Shown here in pieces: positions 10,300-64,000 of a stretch of 64,000 bases of DNA. The stretch spans positions 4,588,001 through 4,652,000 of the forward strand of contig NZ_CP080332.1 in assembly GCF_019456655.1 (NCBI RefSeq), in the 5' to 3' direction. Each line of letters starts with the position of its first letter. Position 1 is the stretch's first letter. The DNA comes from Mycolicibacterium diernhoferi (GTDB lineage: Bacteria; Actinomycetota; Actinomycetes; Mycobacteriales; Mycobacteriaceae). A model generated the notes under the pieces. That model had not been told where the DNA came from. It ran no database searches and saw only the letters and a program-made list of their open reading frames with translations. The translations under genes were made by a program, and so were the position numbers.

Positions 10300-11255
10300 G
10301 CGGGCGGCCGGTACGGCGCGGTCGTGCGCGACATGCCCGCGGCCCGGCCCTTGCCCGCGACCACCAACGCCATCTTCCGGCTGGCCTCATCGATCATCTC
10401 GTCACCGAGCATCACCGCGCCGCGCGCTCCGCCGGCCACCGAGGTGTGCCATTCGTAGGCCTCCAGGATCAACTCGGCGTGGTCGTAGTCGGCCTGGCGG
10501 GGGCTGAACAGTTCGTTGCCCGCGGCGATCTGATCCGGGTGCAGCACCCACTTGCCGTCATAGCCCAGTGCCGCCGATCGTCCGGCCACCCGGCGGAACC
10601 CCTCGACGTCGCGCACCTTCACGTACGGTCCGTCGATCGCGTTGATGCCGCGTGCCCGGGCGGCGACCAAGATTTTCATCAGCACGTGATGGTGGGCGTC
10701 GCCGAGGTCATAGCCCTCGGGTTGCCCACCGACCTCGAGGGTGCGCATGTTCAGGCTGGCCGCCATGTCGCCGGGCCCCAGTACGAGGGCCTGCACCCGC
10801 GGGGCGGCGGCGATGGCGTCGACGTTGGTCAGCCCGAGCGCGTCCTCGATCTGCGGTTCGATCCCGATCCGGCCCACCGGCAGGCCATGGATGGTCTCCA
10901 GTTGGGTCAGCAGCAGATCGAGCGCATGCACGTGGGTGGCGTCGGACACCTTGGGCAGCACGATGATGTCGAGCACCGAACCGGCGGTGGCAACCACGTC
11001 GATGACGTCGGCGTGCGTCCACGGTGTGGTCCAGTCGTTGACCCGCACCCCCTTCAGCGATCCGGCGGACCATCCCGGCTCCATCAGGGCGGCGGCCACC
11101 CGGGACCGGGCGTCGGCCTTGGCGTCGGCGGCGACCGCATCCTCCAGATCCAGGAAGACCTGGTCGGCGGCCAGCGTTTTGGCCTTCTCAATCATCTTGT
11201 CGCTACTGCCCGGAACCGACAGACACGTCCGGCGGGGGCGATACACGTTGTCCAC
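10296..11255 (-). CDS. HpcH/HpaI aldolase / CitE-family CoA-ester lyase
   Basis: 319-residue cytoplasmic TIM-barrel enzyme of the CitE/malyl-CoA lyase group. Visible are the N-terminal RRTCLSVPGSSDKMIEKA, the metal-site region VFLDLEDAV, IIVLPKVSD, IGIEPQIEDALGL, VLGPGDMAASL and the C-terminal GYDGKWVLHPDQI. Members cleave or hydrolyse (S)-malyl-, citramalyl- or beta-methylmalyl-CoA; the exact substrate cannot be read from this sequence. The start is a GTG at 11255 located seven bases from a GAGACT -10, divergent and only 25 bp from the next gene. No companion CoA-transferase or other CoA-ester gene is adjacent. Confidence 0.9.
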   Translation of the reverse strand: MDNVYRPRRTCLSVPGSSDKMIEKAKTLAADQVFLDLEDAVAADAKADARSRVAAALMEPGWSAGSLKGVRVNDWTTPWTHADVIDVVATAGSVLDIIVLPKVSDATHVHALDLLLTQLETIHGLPVGRIGIEPQIEDALGLTNVDAIAAAPRVQALVLGPGDMAASLNMRTLEVGGQPEGYDLGDAHHHVLMKILVAARARGINAIDGPYVKVRDVEGFRRVAGRSAALGYDGKWVLHPDQIAAGNELFSPRQADYDHAELILEAYEWHTSVAGGARGAVMLGDEMIDEASRKMALVVAGKGRAAGMSRTTAPYRPPA

Positions 11256-11261
11256 GCCCCC

Positions 11262-11273
11262 AGTCTCTACGCT
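11262..11273. promoter_or_regulatory. Abutting divergent leaderless -10 elements
   Basis: Minus-strand GAGACT (11267-11262) sits six bases from the GTG at 11255. Plus-strand TACGCT (11268-11273) sits seven bases from the ATG at 11281. The two hexamers touch, and only 25 bp separate the two start codons, so each transcript would be leaderless. Confidence 0.5.
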
Positions 11274-11280
11274 CTAGTTC

Positions 11281-12576
11281 ATGGCGGCGGTAACCAGGGT
11301 CTATGCGGCCCGCCTGGCGGGGATGGTCGTCCTCGGCCCGGATGGCGAGTCGATCGGCCGTGTCCGCGATGTGGTGGTGAGCATCAGCATCGTCCGCCAG
11401 CAGCCGCGCGTCCTCGGCCTTGTCGTCGAATTGCTCACCCGCCGAAGGATTTTCGTGCCGATCCTGCGGGTCACGGCGATCGAGCCGCACGCCGTCACGC
11501 TCACCACCGGCAACGTGTCACTGCGCCGGTTCAGCCAGCGCCCCGGTGAGGTGCTGGCGCTGGGCCAGGTGCTGGAGACCCGGGTCCGCGTCGACGACCC
11601 CGATCTGGAGCAGCTGGCCGGACTCGACGTGGTCGTCGTCGATCTCGGCATCGAGCAGACCCGCACCCGGGACTGGGTGGTCACCAAGGTGGCCGTGCGC
11701 CCGCAGCGCCGGCTCGGCCGGCGCAGCAACGTCTACGCCGTCGACTGGCAACGCGTCCAGGGCTTGACGCCGTCCGGTCTGGCCATGCCCGATCAGGGGG
11801 TGGCCCAGCTGCTGGAGCAGTTCCAGGGTCAGCGCCCCGTCGAGGTCGCCGACGCCGTCCGCGAGCTGCCGCCCAAGCGGCGGTTCGAGGTCGTCAACGC
11901 CCTCGATGACGAGCGACTGGCCGACGTGCTGCAGGAATTGCCCGAGGACGAGCAGGTGGCCGTGCTGCGGCAGCTGAAGACCGACCGGGCCGCCGACGTG
12001 CTGGAGGCGATGGATCCCGACGACGCCGCGGACCTGTTGGGCGCGATGACGCCGGCCGACGCCGAACAGTTCCTGCGCCGGATGGACCCCGAGGACTCCG
12101 AGGATGTCCGACGGCTGCTGAGCCACTCCCCGAACACCGCCGGCGGCCTGATGACCTCCGAGCCGGTGGTGCTGGCGCCGGACACCACGGTCGCCGAGGC
12201 GCTGGCGCGGGTGCGCGACCCCGACCTGACGCCGGCGCTGGCCTCGCTGGTGTTTGTGGTGCGCCCGCCCACCGCCACCCCGACCGGCCACTACCTGGGC
12301 TGTGTGCACCTGCAGCGGCTGTTGCGGGAGCCACCCGCCACGCTGGTCAGCGGCATCATCGACACCGATCTGCCCAACCTGCGACCGGAAGAGACGCTGG
12401 GGGCGCTGACCCGTTATTTCGCCGCCTACAACCTGGTCTGCGGGCCGGTGGTCGACGAGGAGAACCACCTGCTCGGCGCGGTGTCGGTCGACGATGTGCT
12501 CGACCACCTGCTGCCCGACGACTGGCGCGAAGGTGAGACCGAGCCGGTCATCACGCCCGCGGGGAAGACGTCATGA
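11281..12576 (+). CDS. PRC-barrel / MgtE-N / CBS domain protein
   Basis: 431-residue soluble protein. Residues about 1-140 hold a PRC-barrel-like repeat (ARLAGMVVLGPDGESIGRVR, and again LEQLAGLDVVVVDLGI). Residues about 170-285 form the helical MgtE N-terminal domain (VADAVRELPPKRRFEVVNAL, LAEMDP-like units). A CBS pair occupies about 285-420 (LMTSEPVVLAPDTTVAEALA and LRPEETLGALTRYFAAYN). The membrane channel of true MgtE is absent, so it is not a transporter by itself; it may sense Mg2+ or regulate a partner, which is inference. It matches the Rv1232c type and is coupled to the DUF1003 gene downstream (ATGA overlap). Confidence 0.88.
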   Translation: MAAVTRVYAARLAGMVVLGPDGESIGRVRDVVVSISIVRQQPRVLGLVVELLTRRRIFVPILRVTAIEPHAVTLTTGNVSLRRFSQRPGEVLALGQVLETRVRVDDPDLEQLAGLDVVVVDLGIEQTRTRDWVVTKVAVRPQRRLGRRSNVYAVDWQRVQGLTPSGLAMPDQGVAQLLEQFQGQRPVEVADAVRELPPKRRFEVVNALDDERLADVLQELPEDEQVAVLRQLKTDRAADVLEAMDPDDAADLLGAMTPADAEQFLRRMDPEDSEDVRRLLSHSPNTAGGLMTSEPVVLAPDTTVAEALARVRDPDLTPALASLVFVVRPPTATPTGHYLGCVHLQRLLREPPATLVSGIIDTDLPNLRPEETLGALTRYFAAYNLVCGPVVDEENHLLGAVSVDDVLDHLLPDDWREGETEPVITPAGKTS

Positions 12577-13218: not shown

Positions 13219-14538
13219 GTGGTCAAAGGGGCAGCCTCCGCCCTCGCCGCAGTGCGGCATGGCGCAGGGCGGGTGATGCGTACGGTGGCTGATTCCGCGC
13301 CGAGTACCCGGGGTTTGCTGGGTCTCGCCGTCATCAGCCCGTTGGTTCTGACGCTGGGCGTCGGCGCCTCCGCGCCGGTCGCGAAGCCGGTCCTGGAGAC
13401 GACGGTGACCCCGCTCGCGGCCGTGGTCCCCACACCCGACGGCGAGTCCGGTGTCAGCGTCGTCGCGGCCAAGAAGGTCCCGCGGCCGTTCCAGACCGCG
13501 GGCAGCGCGCTGTCCGCCCCGCCGCCGACCGCGGTGGTCACTTCCCCTGGCAGCCTTCGCATTCCGACGGTCGCCCTGAACGCCTACCGCAATGCCGAAC
13601 GGATGATGGCCGCCTCGGCACCCGGCTGCGGGATGAGCTGGAACCTGCTCGCCGGTATCGGCCGGATCGAATCCATGCACGCCAACGGCGGCGCCACCGA
13701 CGTCAACGGCACCGCGGTGAGGCCCATCCTGGGGCCGGCACTGGACGGCACCCTGCCCGGCAACGAGATCATCGTGCAGAGCCGCAGCAACGACCGGGTG
13801 ACCTACGCCCGGGCGATGGGCCCGATGCAGTTCCTGCCCGGAACCTGGTCGCGGTACGCCTCCGACGGCAACGGTGACGGCAAGACCGAGGTGCAGAACC
13901 TGTACGACGCGACCCTGGCCGCGGCCCGCTACCTGTGCAGCGGCGGGCTGAGCATGCGTGATCAGAACCAGGTGATGACGGCGATCCTGCGCTACAACAA
14001 CTCTGTCGCCTACGCCCGCAATGTGCTCGGCTGGGCCGCGGCCTACGCGACCGGTGTGGTCCCGGTGGACCTGCCGCCCATCACCGGGTCGGTTCCGCAG
14101 CTCAGGGATGCCAATGTGCATCTGAACAGCGAGGCCGAGGGTCTGGGCCCCGGGCTGCCACTGAACGCGCTCGGATTGCCGTCGACCGACCCGATGGCCG
14201 TGATGCCGTTCTTCGACCTGGGCCGGGCCAACGTGGCCGACCGGCTGCCGGTGCCGCCCGGACCGGATCAGCCCGCGGCGGTCCCGAACTGCGCGGTGTT
14301 CTGCATCGGGGAGAACACCCCGGCCCCGGCACCCGCCGCGCCGCCGGCACCGTTCAACCCGTTCGCCCCGCCGCCACCCGCGGCACCGCCGGCGCTGTTC
14401 AACCCGTTCGCCCCGCCGCCACCGGCGGCCGCGCCTGCGGCGCCGTTCAATCCGTTCGCGCCGCCACCGCCCGCCCCGGCGGCACCGGCGCTGCCGGGGA
14501 TGACCGGAACCGGCGCGCTGCCCGGCCCCGTGGACTGA
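13219..14538 (+). CDS. Secreted lytic murein transglycosylase, MltB-like
   Basis: 439-residue exported cell-wall enzyme (Rv1230c type). The start is a GTG at 13219; an N-terminal hydrophobic segment (GLLGLAVISPLVLTLGVGA, about 34-52) is the signal or anchor. The catalytic domain spans about 115-290: GIGRIESMHANGG carries the likely catalytic Glu, followed by YARAMGPMQFLPGTWSRYA, DGNGDGKTEVQNLYDATLAA and YLCSGG. The enzyme should cleave peptidoglycan glycan strands to anhydro-muropeptides. The C-terminal region (about 365-430) has tandem FNPFAPPPPA units, probably a wall-spanning or interaction tail. It lies directly upstream of mrp. Confidence 0.92.
   Translation: MVKGAASALAAVRHGAGRVMRTVADSAPSTRGLLGLAVISPLVLTLGVGASAPVAKPVLETTVTPLAAVVPTPDGESGVSVVAAKKVPRPFQTAGSALSAPPPTAVVTSPGSLRIPTVALNAYRNAERMMAASAPGCGMSWNLLAGIGRIESMHANGGATDVNGTAVRPILGPALDGTLPGNEIIVQSRSNDRVTYARAMGPMQFLPGTWSRYASDGNGDGKTEVQNLYDATLAAARYLCSGGLSMRDQNQVMTAILRYNNSVAYARNVLGWAAAYATGVVPVDLPPITGSVPQLRDANVHLNSEAEGLGPGLPLNALGLPSTDPMAVMPFFDLGRANVADRLPVPPGPDQPAAVPNCAVFCIGENTPAPAPAAPPAPFNPFAPPPPAAPPALFNPFAPPPPAAAPAAPFNPFAPPPPAPAAPALPGMTGTGALPGPVD
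14360..14490 (+). repeat. In-gene Pro-rich repeat (FNPFAPPPPA units)
   Basis: At least three near-identical codon blocks encode FNPFAPPPP at the C-terminus of the transglycosylase. The bases repeat as well as the residues, which points to slippage-type expansion. Confidence 0.7.
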
Positions 14539-14601
14539 GCGTCCGGTACGGCCCCGCGGCCTGAGCGTCCTCCCCGAGAATCCGGGTCCGCGGGCGCGGC
14601 C

Positions 14602-14607
14602 TACACT
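14602..14607 (+). promoter_or_regulatory. Leaderless -10 for mrp
   Basis: TACACT at 14602-14607 lies just before GTGATG (14613-14618). A transcript starting on the G at 14613 would begin with the start codon. Confidence 0.45.
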
Positions 14608-14612
14608 CGCGG

Positions 14613-15758
14613 GTGATGTCCTCGCCTAATACCGACCTCGAAGCTGCGGTTCGCTCCGCGCTCGCCAAGGTCGTCGACCCCGAACTGCGCCGCCCGATCA
14701 CCGAGGTCGGCATGGTCAAAAGCGTCACCATTGCCGACAACCAGGCCGTCGGTGTCGAGATCTACCTGACCACCTCGGCCTGCCCCAAGAAGGCCGAGAT
14801 CGTGGACAGGGTGACCGCCGCGGTCACCGACGTCCCCGGCACCGGCGCGGTCAAGGTCAGCCTCGACGTCATGAACGACGAGCAGCGCGCCGAATTGCGC
14901 AAGCAGTTGCGCGGTGACTCCCGCGAACCGGTGATCCCGTTCGCCCAGCCCAACTCGCTGACCCGGGTCTACGCCGTGGCCTCCGGCAAGGGCGGAGTCG
15001 GAAAGTCCAGTGTCACCGTCAATCTCGCGGCCGCACTGGCTGCCCGCGGATTGTCGGTGGGCGTGCTCGACGCCGATATCTACGGCCATTCGGTGCCGCG
15101 GATGATGGGCATCGTAGACCGGCCCACCCAGGTCGACTCGATGATCCTGCCTCCGATCGCACATGACGTGAAGGTCATCTCGATCGCCATGTTCACCCAG
15201 GGCAACACCCCGGTGGTGTGGCGCGGACCGATGCTGCACCGCGCCCTGCAGCAGTTCCTGGCCGACGTCTACTGGGGCGATCTGGACGTGCTGCTGCTCG
15301 ACCTGCCGCCCGGCACCGGCGACATCGCCATCTCGGTGTCCCAGCTGATCCCGGGTGCGGAGATCCTGGTGGTCACCACCCCGCAGTCGGCGGCCGCCGA
15401 GGTCGCCGAACGGGCCGGCGCGATCGCCCTGCAGACCCGTCAACGCATCGTCGGCGTGGTGGAGAACATGGCCGGGCTGACCCTGCCCGACGGCACCGTC
15501 ATGCAGATCTTCGGCGAGGGTGGTGGCGCGCAGGTCTCGGCGTCGCTGACCCGGTCGGTGGGCGCCGAGGTGCCGCTGCTGGGTCAGGTGCCGCTGGAGC
15601 CCGAACTGGTGGCCGCGGGCGACTCCGGGTTGCCGCTGGTGCTATCGGCGCCGGACTCCCCCGCCGCCAAGGAGCTGCGCAAGATCGCCGACGCGCTCGG
15701 CGCCCGCAAGCGTGGGCTGGCCGGCATGTCGCTGGGACTGGATCCCGCCGGGCGTTAG
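14613..15758 (+). CDS. mrp: Mrp family iron-sulfur cluster carrier ATPase
   Basis: 381-residue P-loop ATPase of the ApbC/Mrp/Nbp35 group, which carries and transfers Fe-S clusters in the cytoplasm. An N-terminal DUF59/FSCA domain (about 8-95: VVDPELRRPITEVGMVKSV, AEIVDRVTAAV) precedes the deviant Walker A SGKGGVGKSSVTVNLA, then VGVLDADIYGHSVPRMMG and VLLLDLPPGTGDIAISV. The C-terminal CxxC of some homologues is not evident. The start is either the GTG at 14613 or the ATG at 14616; a leaderless -10 favours 14613. Corresponds to Rv1229c. Confidence 0.94.
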   Translation: MMSSPNTDLEAAVRSALAKVVDPELRRPITEVGMVKSVTIADNQAVGVEIYLTTSACPKKAEIVDRVTAAVTDVPGTGAVKVSLDVMNDEQRAELRKQLRGDSREPVIPFAQPNSLTRVYAVASGKGGVGKSSVTVNLAAALAARGLSVGVLDADIYGHSVPRMMGIVDRPTQVDSMILPPIAHDVKVISIAMFTQGNTPVVWRGPMLHRALQQFLADVYWGDLDVLLLDLPPGTGDIAISVSQLIPGAEILVVTTPQSAAAEVAERAGAIALQTRQRIVGVVENMAGLTLPDGTVMQIFGEGGGAQVSASLTRSVGAEVPLLGQVPLEPELVAAGDSGLPLVLSAPDSPAAKELRKIADALGARKRGLAGMSLGLDPAGR

Positions 15759-58766: not shown

Positions 58767-61372
<2,606 letters not shown>

Positions 61373-61765
61373 TTCACGCCTGCTACGTCTTGCGCGAGCG
61401 GGTAAGCACACGATCGCATGCAGCAAATTTCTCAGCGCTCGCCGCAATGCCCTCTATTGAACCGTCCGGTGCACCATGCCCGCGATACTGGTTCCTGATA
61501 CCCGCACGTGCCACAAGGATTCGCCCGCCCGCCGCAGTCGAGGCAATCTGCCGCCGTAGATCCGCTGATCATCGCTGGTCAACGTGCACAATACCCCGTT
61601 CGGCTGACACTGCGTGTCAGGCAAGAGGAGTCATTTGCAGAGGTCTGAGCACAAAGCCCATGAGATACACACGAGCTTATTGACGCTAGCTGCTAATTTC
61701 ACCGCATTCACGGCCTCGGCCGGCAGCTCCCCTTCGCTTTGGCGACCTTCAGCAAAGGACATGTC
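61373..61765. other. Intergenic region before the long surface protease-like gene
   Basis: 393 bp with no credible gene; base composition falls below that of the neighbouring coding DNA. It holds an inverted repeat at 61604-61620 (CTGACAC-TGC-GTGTCAG, perfect 7 bp arms) and AAGAGGAG nearby, but no fitting start codon follows. The downstream gene has AAAGGA at 61754-61759. Confidence 0.5.
61604..61620. promoter_or_regulatory. Perfect inverted repeat CTGACAC-N3-GTGTCAG
   Basis: Seven-base arms around TGC, 145 bp ahead of the long open gene. It could be an operator or a small RNA hairpin. Confidence 0.4.
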
Positions 61766-64000
61766 ATGTCTGCCCCTAGTCCGCGCAAGTCTCATCGGTC
61801 GAAGGGCCGCCACCGCAAACAGCAGCAACTTCACGAAGACATCGCTGGGTGGCTTCGCATTGGAGCAGCCACCGTCGGGATCGGCGCGGCGTTCACACTC
61901 GGCAGTGGCGTTGCCATCGCTGATTCCAGTACCAGCGGCGACGGCGACTCCTCAAGTTCGGCTTCCGGTAGTGACACCACCGATAAGGGAACTTCGGACT
62001 CTGCGGGGTCAGGTGGCACTGATTCGGATCCGGATACCTCTACGAATAGTGACCCGGCCGGGCCGGATGCAGAAGACGAGGACGACCCCTTCGCCGGCAG
62101 TACGCCCGTCGACAGCGAGAATACATTTCCTGACGACGATGCCAGCGACGAGACCCTGACGGACGTTGGCACCCAGAATGAGAACGCGGCGGGGCTCACG
62201 ACACGTAAGACCGGCCTGGAGTCCAAGTGGTCAAGGCGTTCCAGCACACGCGCCATCGATCCGGAAGCTCTCCGCGCAACATCGACTGATGTCAGCAGCG
62301 ATGTAGAGCAGCAGAATTCGACCAGTCCCAGCGGATCTGACTCAAGCGAGGCCTCTAGCGAAGAATCTCCACAAGCCACGGTGGCAGCAGCACGGGCGGG
62401 CACACCGCTAGCCCTCACTAACGCCGCACATGCGAACGCGCCGGGCCTGACCACCGCTGTAGCGAGACCCGCGGTGACAGTTAAGAGCATCTTCGTCGAT
62501 GTACTGACCTGGATCGGGCTAGGTCCGATCGCCAAGTACGTACCGCTCCCCGCCCTGCCTCTTCCAAACTTCGTCGAAGCGATTTGGATCGGTGTACGGG
62601 AGTTCAACCAGCGCTTCAATAATCAGCAGCCGAAGGCGCGGCCCACCATTACAGGGCAGGGAACCGACGGGACGATCACTGGCAATCTCAACGCTGTCGA
62701 CTTCGACGGCGATACGCTGACGTTCACGGCGGGCGTCGCGAAAAACGGTGGCATGGTCCACGTTGCACCCGATGGGAGCTTCACGTACACCCCAAGCCCA
62801 GAGCTGGCGGCGACCGGCGGTGTCGATACCTTCAGGGTCCAGATCAGCGATTCGGTTGGTAACCCATGGCATATGCACGGGTTACTTGGGGCCCTCGGAC
62901 TCTTGGGGCCGATCACCAAGAAGGTGACCGTGAGAGTGGATAAGGTCACGGGCCCCGTTGACCATTCGCCCGAGGCCCTCGATCCGCCGTACACAATTAC
63001 CGGTACTGGCTTAGATGGTTCCGTCTACGGCCAAGTCAACGTGAGAGACGCCGATACCGACACCGGCACACTGATATTCGGCCTAGCCGTACCAGTCGAT
63101 TCCGCAGTGGGAATCGCGATCGTAGGCAGCAATGGAGCATGGACCTTTACTCCAACGCCGCAGGCGCGGTACCACGCATCATTGTCAACCGAGGTCGACA
63201 TCGTCGATTTCGCGGTCAGAGTTTCCGATGGTACTAGCATCATCACAATCCCTGTGACTGTTCAGATCTCGCCGTTGAGTCCCGACAATGATGGCACTCT
63301 CGACCCTGCCGAACTCGAAGACCTCGTAGCAAGCGGACTCGTCGCAGTCATCGAGAACGAGAACGGCACCCTACGAGTGATCGACGGCCGGTTCTCCGAT
63401 AATGTCGTGCACAGCACGTCCGATGCCGCCGAAGTACTCAACCAGATTTCGGGGTTGCTAGGGGCTAGCCCTGGGTTTGCGTCATCGACCAGTATTGACA
63501 CTCAAACCGTCACTCAAACGACGGATACAGGCGAAGTTATAGAAACCTTCTATCGCCTGAACCCAGTAATCGATGGAATAGCGGTCTTAGGCAGCCAAGT
63601 AGTGCTGTCAACCGACGGTAGTGGCCGAGTCACCGGTGTTATCAGCGGTTACAATCCGGGTCTCGCTCACACCAATACGGTGCCCGACGGAGCAGTCGAT
63701 GCGGACGCCGCTGTCCGAGCAGCTACCGAAGCCCTACTCCTAGAACTATCCGAACTACTCGACGGATCAGGCACCTCGAGCTTTCTTCAGTCGCTGAGCG
63801 TCACACCGGAATTGATTATCTACGCGGCAGACTCTGAAACGCCGCCCCGATTGGCTTGGCAAGTGGTCGTATACACCGCCCCTGCATCCGCGGACGATGA
63901 GCTCGGCCAAGAACTTCGCCCCTACATCAGTGCGGTCCTATTCGTTGCTGCCGACGGAAGCGACGCAGGATCTGCATTCGCGAGCCTATCGAGTACCTCC
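61766..64000 (+). CDS. Secreted cadherin-repeat protein with FTP-type protease propeptide (partial)
   Basis: Open at the right edge; 745 codons are visible without a stop. ATG at 61766 with AAAGGA six bases upstream. The basic start (MSAPSPRKSHRSKGRHRKQQ) leads to a signal segment (IGAATVGIGAAFTLGSGVAI, cleavage near AIA-DS), then a Ser/Asp/Thr-rich region (about 55-225), the mycobacterial motif VLTWIGLGPIAKYVPLP (about 240-260), and cadherin-like repeats (about 285-510; VDFDGDTLTF, APDGSFTYTPSPE, GAWTFTPTP). From about 515 onward there is a fungalysin/thermolysin propeptide-like stretch: YRLNPVIDGIAVLGSQVVLS, then VTGVISGY and LAWQVVVYT. An M4/M36-type metallopeptidase domain is therefore expected beyond the window. 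Codon use is unlike its neighbours (many CTA, ATA, GTA, GAA). Confidence 0.75.
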   Translation, partial: MSAPSPRKSHRSKGRHRKQQQLHEDIAGWLRIGAATVGIGAAFTLGSGVAIADSSTSGDGDSSSSASGSDTTDKGTSDSAGSGGTDSDPDTSTNSDPAGPDAEDEDDPFAGSTPVDSENTFPDDDASDETLTDVGTQNENAAGLTTRKTGLESKWSRRSSTRAIDPEALRATSTDVSSDVEQQNSTSPSGSDSSEASSEESPQATVAAARAGTPLALTNAAHANAPGLTTAVARPAVTVKSIFVDVLTWIGLGPIAKYVPLPALPLPNFVEAIWIGVREFNQRFNNQQPKARPTITGQGTDGTITGNLNAVDFDGDTLTFTAGVAKNGGMVHVAPDGSFTYTPSPELAATGGVDTFRVQISDSVGNPWHMHGLLGALGLLGPITKKVTVRVDKVTGPVDHSPEALDPPYTITGTGLDGSVYGQVNVRDADTDTGTLIFGLAVPVDSAVGIAIVGSNGAWTFTPTPQARYHASLSTEVDIVDFAVRVSDGTSIITIPVTVQISPLSPDNDGTLDPAELEDLVASGLVAVIENENGTLRVIDGRFSDNVVHSTSDAAEVLNQISGLLGASPGFASSTSIDTQTVTQTTDTGEVIETFYRLNPVIDGIAVLGSQVVLSTDGSGRVTGVISGYNPGLAHTNTVPDGAVDADAAVRAATEALLLELSELLDGSGTSSFLQSLSVTPELIIYAADSETPPRLAWQVVVYTAPASADDELGQELRPYISAVLFVAADGSDAGSAFASLSSTS

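Follow-up and report, generated by a model that had tools for sequence, protein, structure and literature searches.

A mycobacterial cadherin-repeat protein predicted to be an M4 (thermolysin-type) zymogen with an exchangeable head

Does a mycobacterial gene that begins as a cadherin-repeat protein and runs into a protease propeptide go on to encode a protease, and would such a protein be out of place in its lineage? The gene in question lies at the end of the window, a stretch of 64,000 nucleotides of Mycolicibacterium diernhoferi (G000:C1:4588001-4652000) from a single-contig genome of 6.0 Mb. Positions 61766..64000 of the forward strand encode residues 1-745 of 1224; the frame is open past the window edge and its stop codon ends at window coordinate 65440. 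An earlier note on this DNA had foreseen, from part of the gene, an exported protein in which cadherin repeats lead into a propeptide and a zinc protease, and the complete frame bears this out. Judged by its sequence, the product is an M4 zymogen that is intact and bears a repeat head of an exchangeable sort, a design that is not rare in mycobacteria; we think it probable that it acts as a secreted zinc protease of the thermolysin type, which is produced as a zymogen behind a mycobacterial display head and is released by cutting itself.

The HExxH motif that had been sought in the continuation past 64000 was found, with the catalytic residues present: HEFTH occupies residues 901-905, beyond the window, and a second zinc motif, NEAYAD, residues 928-933. 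Pfam assigns residues 755-908 to Peptidase_M4 (66.8 bits; cut-off 22.4) and residues 922-1070 to Peptidase_M4_C (52.2 bits; cut-off 24.4), while the cut-off for M36 (fungalysin, PF02128) was not reached in the gene product. Of the predicted series of signal, linker, cadherin repeats, propeptide and an M4 or M36 protease, the M4 enzyme therefore stood and the M36 alternative did not. H901, E902, H905, E929, D933, R976 and H994 are all present; these include the HExxH residues, the third glutamate ligand, the catalytic histidine and the arginine, the catalytic histidine position being the equivalent of thermolysin His231. The first six are invariant in 53 of 53 aligned proteins and H994 is kept in 48 (Tyr in four, Asp in one); a further set of 105 rows keeps H901, E902, H905 and E929 throughout, R976 in 104 rows and H994 in 100. 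Tyrosine replaces the catalytic histidine in rows L006, P0006, P0010, P0064 and L149, and activity in these relatives is possibly altered or lost. By these residues the gene product is a member of peptidase family M4 with an intact predicted active site.

Ahead of the enzyme lies a propeptide (FTP and the domain that follows it) at 63278..64000 on the forward strand, residues about 505-745, for which a thermolysin-type propeptide fold was found. The earlier expectation of an FTP propeptide was thus borne out in fold and in the presence of the motif (63545-63640, forward strand; residues 594-625), but not in score: PF07504 reaches 18.3 bits (E 0.0021), under the gathering score of 21, which counts against the assignment. 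Some kin pass that score, namely a paralogue in the same genome (27.9 bits), P0002 (21.9) and P0007 (27.0). A scan of named genomes confirmed at least 536 relatives, of which the best 80 of 536 were kept; among the 22 of these labelled Mycobacterium, Mycolicibacterium or Actinomycetes bacterium (a Williamsia record flagged as unverified contamination was left out), Pfam matches at E 1e-3 comprised M4 in 22, Big_9 in 18 and FTP in 11.

The head that precedes the propeptide starts at the ATG at 61766, with AAAGGA ending 6 bases upstream; an alternative in-frame TTG, also open, lies 27 bases 5' of this ATG, and the database protein P0001 is identical to the gene product but starts at residue 237 (988 aa). 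A long, basic signal peptide is recognisable by eye at 61766..61921 (forward strand, residues 1-52), residues 1-29 being basic and 30-50 hydrophobic, with AIA|D at 50-53, after whose AIA we guess that cleavage occurs; similar heads are found in some paralogues of the same genome. A Ser/Asp/Thr-rich linker, judged by eye from its composition and outside the structure model, follows at 61922..62473 (forward strand, residues 53-236) and is probably unstructured. A conserved helical element (DVLTWIGLGPIAKYVPLPALP...NNQQP; 62474..62620, forward strand, residues 237-285) precedes the repeats; a like element stands before the repeats in the consensus of the 22 named relatives, and the predicted model gives it helices at low confidence (pLDDT 62-73). 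Cadherin-like repeat 1 (62621..62860, forward strand, residues 286-365) is the best Big_9 stretch, and cadherin/VCBS-like repeat 2 (63029..63262, forward strand, residues 422-499) scores 28.5 bits with TIGR01965 (NCBIfam VCBS; cut-off 15.5). Big_9 matches in two stretches (39.5 bits; cut-off 23.6), placing more than one copy among the cadherin-like/Ig repeats.

At the other end of the protein, a TerD beta-sandwich fold spans the whole tail domain, and fold comparison matched it to TerD chains. Sequence comparison gives the tail no clear family. TerD (PF02342) is absent from the Pfam matches at E up to 1 in all 18 tails scanned; profile-profile comparison of the tail with TerD gives a probability of 1.9, E 0.026 and a score of 20.3, which is reached by 2 of 200 column shuffles and nearly by the reversed profile (19.8); PPC (PF04151) matches weakly at E up to 1 in 4 of the 18 tails (best E 0.0041), scoring 10.8 bits here against a gathering cut-off of 25.9; and no Pfam family reaches its cut-off in the tail of this protein. 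Searched by sequence against solved structures, the tail profile returned a single match, the collagenase domain 5sv5 (E 0.081). TerD genes proper were not found in the host genome at E 1e-3, and occur in 1 of 21 genus genomes and 1 of 41 phylum genomes. In three other genus genomes (L180, L181, L182) the tail domain also occurs towards the end of long frames in which, judged by eye and not by Pfam, M4 is not matched.

The earlier note had called this architecture unusual for a mycobacterium, a view that the genus does not support: 28 of 198 same-genus genomes match the protease half at E<1e-50 (counted from the listing), and a second such M4 protein occurs in the host genome, so the architecture is not unusual for a mycobacterium. 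At E 1e-3 the count is 37 of 198, own genome included, some of these matches being tail-only or weak M4. Segments of the genus genomes are identical to records of Mycolicibacterium species such as M. hodleri, M. frederiksbergense, M. xanthum and M. vanbaalenii. Across the class, six of 394 genomes match below E 1e-50, all of them of the same genus, and five genomes outside the genus match the M4 part at 1e-10 to 1e-18. The second M4 protease of the host (L070:1913-6808, G000:C1 near 3.79 Mb) is a 1632-residue frame with five Big_9 stretches, weak propeller-like matches, no tail domain and a third-position GC (GC3) of 0.90; it is placed in a separate clade of six rows.

The head is likewise shared, and with proteins of other kinds. 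Searched with the first 499 residues, the host genome gives matches in 14 further open frames at E 1e-3 (30 matches including self), some over the repeats or the low-complexity linker only, and Big_9 is found in 11 of the 14 (not in L066, L069 or L077). The cargoes behind these heads comprise a cellulase-type end (L068), a beta-helix (L076), DUF4185 (L077), propeller or lactonase-type repeats (L071, L073) and weak alpha/beta-hydrolase matches below cut-off (L064, L069); L065, L072 and L074 consist essentially of repeats only. Two short cadherin-headed frames (L067:2288-4297 and L075:1504-3318) have no Pfam enzyme match and contain, by eye, HE[FL]LHSFG, so that their cargo is possibly another metalloprotease. 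Given these varied cargoes behind a shared head, and the tail on non-M4 frames, the parts (heads, repeats, enzymes and tail) look as if they could be exchanged as modules.

Relatives were sought among 5.8 billion proteins, of which only the 7999 best candidates were scored; this gave 286 relatives, the best 120 of 286 being listed. The search covered lengths between 0.55 and 1.75 times 1224 aa, a range wide enough for headless enzymes, and P0001 is one of the 120. Outside the mycobacteria, the relatives are mostly Clostridia, several from animal guts to judge by record names; Coriobacteria, Bacilli and Chloroflexi come next, with isolated cases that include a Muribaculum record. The propeptide-protease-tail module is 30-41% identical to that of Clostridia. 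In a tree of 59 tail-bearing rows, 18 rows labelled cadherin-headed (on the basis of precomputed Pfam lists, except that P0011 and L027 were assigned by kinship or eye) fall on one side of a branch supported at 100/99. A rooted tree was built from 46 rows hand-picked from the 105 that were left once 9 short rows and 7 duplicates had been dropped, tail-only loci giving no row. Its 21 mycobacterial-labelled rows, which include unnamed database entries, make up a single clade (98/94), and this joins 3 of the 17 rows of the clostridial set, which includes the Muribaculum record (99/99), inside the rest. One exchange of the module between Clostridia and mycobacteria is well supported by these trees, and the module would stand as a record of it; the exchange may have run either way, because the AU (approximately unbiased) test does not reject the clostridial set as one clade (p 0.333). 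Plasmids were also considered as a source and rejected: a tblastn search of 72,556 plasmid records matched 35, all at <60% identity, and in no record did a single place account for 80% of the query.

How the gene came to its present site can be read from its neighbourhood. DNA similarity to two relatives, G011 and G012, ends at 61371-61372 and resumes at 65491, delimiting an insert of 4118 bases (61373..64000, unstranded, and on past the window to 65490) between an OYE-type reductase gene (stop 61372) and a YceI-like gene. The same site holds 665 bases in G011 and 83 in G012, and the protease gene is absent there. The neighbours, by sequence type aminotransferase, ferredoxin, PadR-like, OYE-type reductase, YceI-like, fbiC and mshB-like genes, keep their order in both relatives; a small frame at 66125-66592 is without a match at the G011/G012 locus, and G012 has other DNA between fbiC and YceI. 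YceI lies next to ferredoxin in G014, with reductase and regulator unmatched, and in the remaining three of the six relatives compared YceI is the sole match. In G011 the same intergenic spot is occupied by another open frame, some 200 codons long (L176:9962-10626), so the spot may take up genes repeatedly. Of six direct-repeat families checked as marks of a mobile element, none stands at both insert ends; one short-loop inverted repeat at 65453-65484 looks like a shared terminator, and promoter and terminator scans stayed within about one standard deviation of shuffles.

Base composition also sets the gene apart, as had been claimed from its codon choice. Its GC3 is 0.637, against a mean of 0.876 (standard deviation 0.044, lowest 0.751) in 46 window open reading frames (ORFs), and it uses CTA, ATA, GTA and AGA at 38.4 per thousand codons, against 6.0 in the pooled ORFs and a maximum of 17.1 in any single one. 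The GC3 contrast is partly built in, because the 46 were picked greedily among ORFs no shorter than 150 aa, after frames below a GC3 of 0.70 had been removed; eight downstream ORFs chosen by position and unfiltered nevertheless give 0.83-0.91 (one 0.77 from its earliest possible start). GC through the gene, in 200-base steps, is 0.46-0.63 against 0.684 for the window. The best explanation has the gene reaching this site as one accessory insertion. That it is instead native to the lineage and merely fast-evolving, its low GC3 being a trait of the repeat-gene class with no recent transfer, we hold to be quite possible, though we lean away from it: the head is mycobacterial in style and 3 of the 14 head- or repeat-sharing frames also have GC3 <0.75 (0.647, 0.684 and 0.747; two of them separated by about 5 kb), so that low GC3 may be typical of such genes as well as a sign of transfer, but two relatives lack the gene at this site while keeping most of its neighbours, and GC is also low in the 393 bases before it (0.585 against 0.684). 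Two of the low-GC3 frames, L064 and L073 (G000:C1 3.897-3.914 Mb; 0.647, 0.684), lie near each other, and one of them ends in a weak alpha/beta-hydrolase match. Further downstream (L002:9493-10608, 10692-11792 and 13462-14814; window 69493-74814) are three exported-looking proteins with long Asp/Glu/Thr-rich tails, the first two of which match a G011 stretch beside fbiC.

How the enzyme might be released is suggested by the order of its parts. The recurrent order places the anchor before the propeptide: by overhang positions extrapolated from BLAST, 111 of the 120 listed proteins have at least 150 residues ahead of the propeptide (median 300), and of the 101 matched as far as the end of the tail just one has at least 50 residues beyond it. 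Accessory domains were found in eight of nine hand-picked relatives (SLH, CBM2, CBM26, CBM49, choline-binding, Listeria-Bacteroides repeat, cadherin and propeller), each one's best stretch being N-terminal to the M4 domain; scanning of the ninth, P0090, gave none. As the anchor precedes the propeptide, and as the M4 protease E495 loses its propeptide on maturation (PMC3327674), the anchor would be lost at activation and self-processing should free the enzyme. The precursor would be exported through its long signal peptide and held to the cell envelope, or within the biofilm matrix, by the linker, the helical element and the two cadherin-like repeats, with an FTP-type propeptide that, by homology, would fold and inhibit the enzyme. 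A self-cut at the propeptide/catalytic junction, near residues 735-755, would then separate catalytic domain and tail from the anchor, since the head lies N-terminal to the propeptide, and the TerD/PPC-like beta-sandwich tail might steer the freed enzyme to protein substrates or bind calcium. If anchor-first order does mean release, it offers a simple, testable way to hold a safe precursor and let an active enzyme go.

Some points tell against release. The junction varies among relatives, which makes the cut site a guess, and vibriolysin 3nqy bears the title 'autoprocessed complex', which, as a title, suggests that a cut propeptide, and with it the head, might stay with the enzyme. The head might accordingly never part from the protease, either in a single surface chain or as a cut propeptide and head that remain bound; the head is also common to non-protease proteins of the host genome, where no such cut would be expected. 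We consider this tethered form unlikely. M4 propeptides are as a rule removed, which speaks against tethering, as does the loss of the E495 propeptide, and the anchors found precede the propeptide in both the mycobacterial and the clostridial groups, where they would be lost. That the protein is a repeat-rich adhesin whose M4 domain survives as the binding relic of a decayed protease is very improbable, for its long end branch (0.82-0.99 changes per column) and low GC3 would suit decay but all checked catalytic residues are kept and the frame is intact.

More speculatively, and with considerable doubt, the self-releasing protease may be one case of a detachable design in two phyla, in which a constant propeptide-M4-TerD-like tail would be combined with interchangeable anchors before the propeptide, self-cleavage launching the enzyme from cell wall, polysaccharide or mycobacterial envelope. 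Mycobacteria would have taken the module once from Clostridia and swapped its anchor for their own cadherin head, and the tail would be a branch of the TerD fold that became secreted and that also forms the end of repeat proteins without a protease.

In our impression thermolysin-type exoproteases are seldom associated with mycobacteria. In the open-licence PMC literature no paper was found that joins a cadherin-like part to a thermolysin-type metalloprotease in Mycobacterium, none combining S-layer homology, thermolysin, propeptide and metalloprotease, and none combining Mycolicibacterium with M4 family metallopeptidase. Thermolysin, bacillolysin and aureolysin are 28-31% identical to the gene product in structural alignment; these enzymes are not known to have a cadherin head before the propeptide or a TerD-like tail. 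E495, a vibriolysin-type enzyme with a C-terminal PPC domain, resembles our protein in its order of propeptide, M4 domain and small domain; its PPC binds protein via conserved Asp and Tyr/Trp, and it is described without a display head (PMC3327674), unlike the gene product here, whose tail falls below the PPC Pfam cut-off and matched TerD chains by fold. The clostridial M4 proteins share the propeptide-M4-tail arrangement (for example Family XIII P0007, 39% identity over 99%, and Ruminococcus P0026, 38% over 98% of the searched part), but their heads before the propeptide are SLH, carbohydrate-binding or choline-binding where ours is cadherin. What merits attention is the placing of the anchor ahead of the propeptide in both phyla, together with the tail that resembles TerD and the module's exchange with Clostridia. 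Of the same kind as the gene product are two Mycolicibacterium proteins, P0023 ('tandem-95 repeat', 40% identity) and P0002 ('YVTN beta-propeller/VCBS repeat', 42%), which likewise have repeats, an M4 domain and a tail, carry more repeats than the gene product and, in P0002, propeller-like matches as well; in both, the public name hides a protease behind a repeat-protein label.
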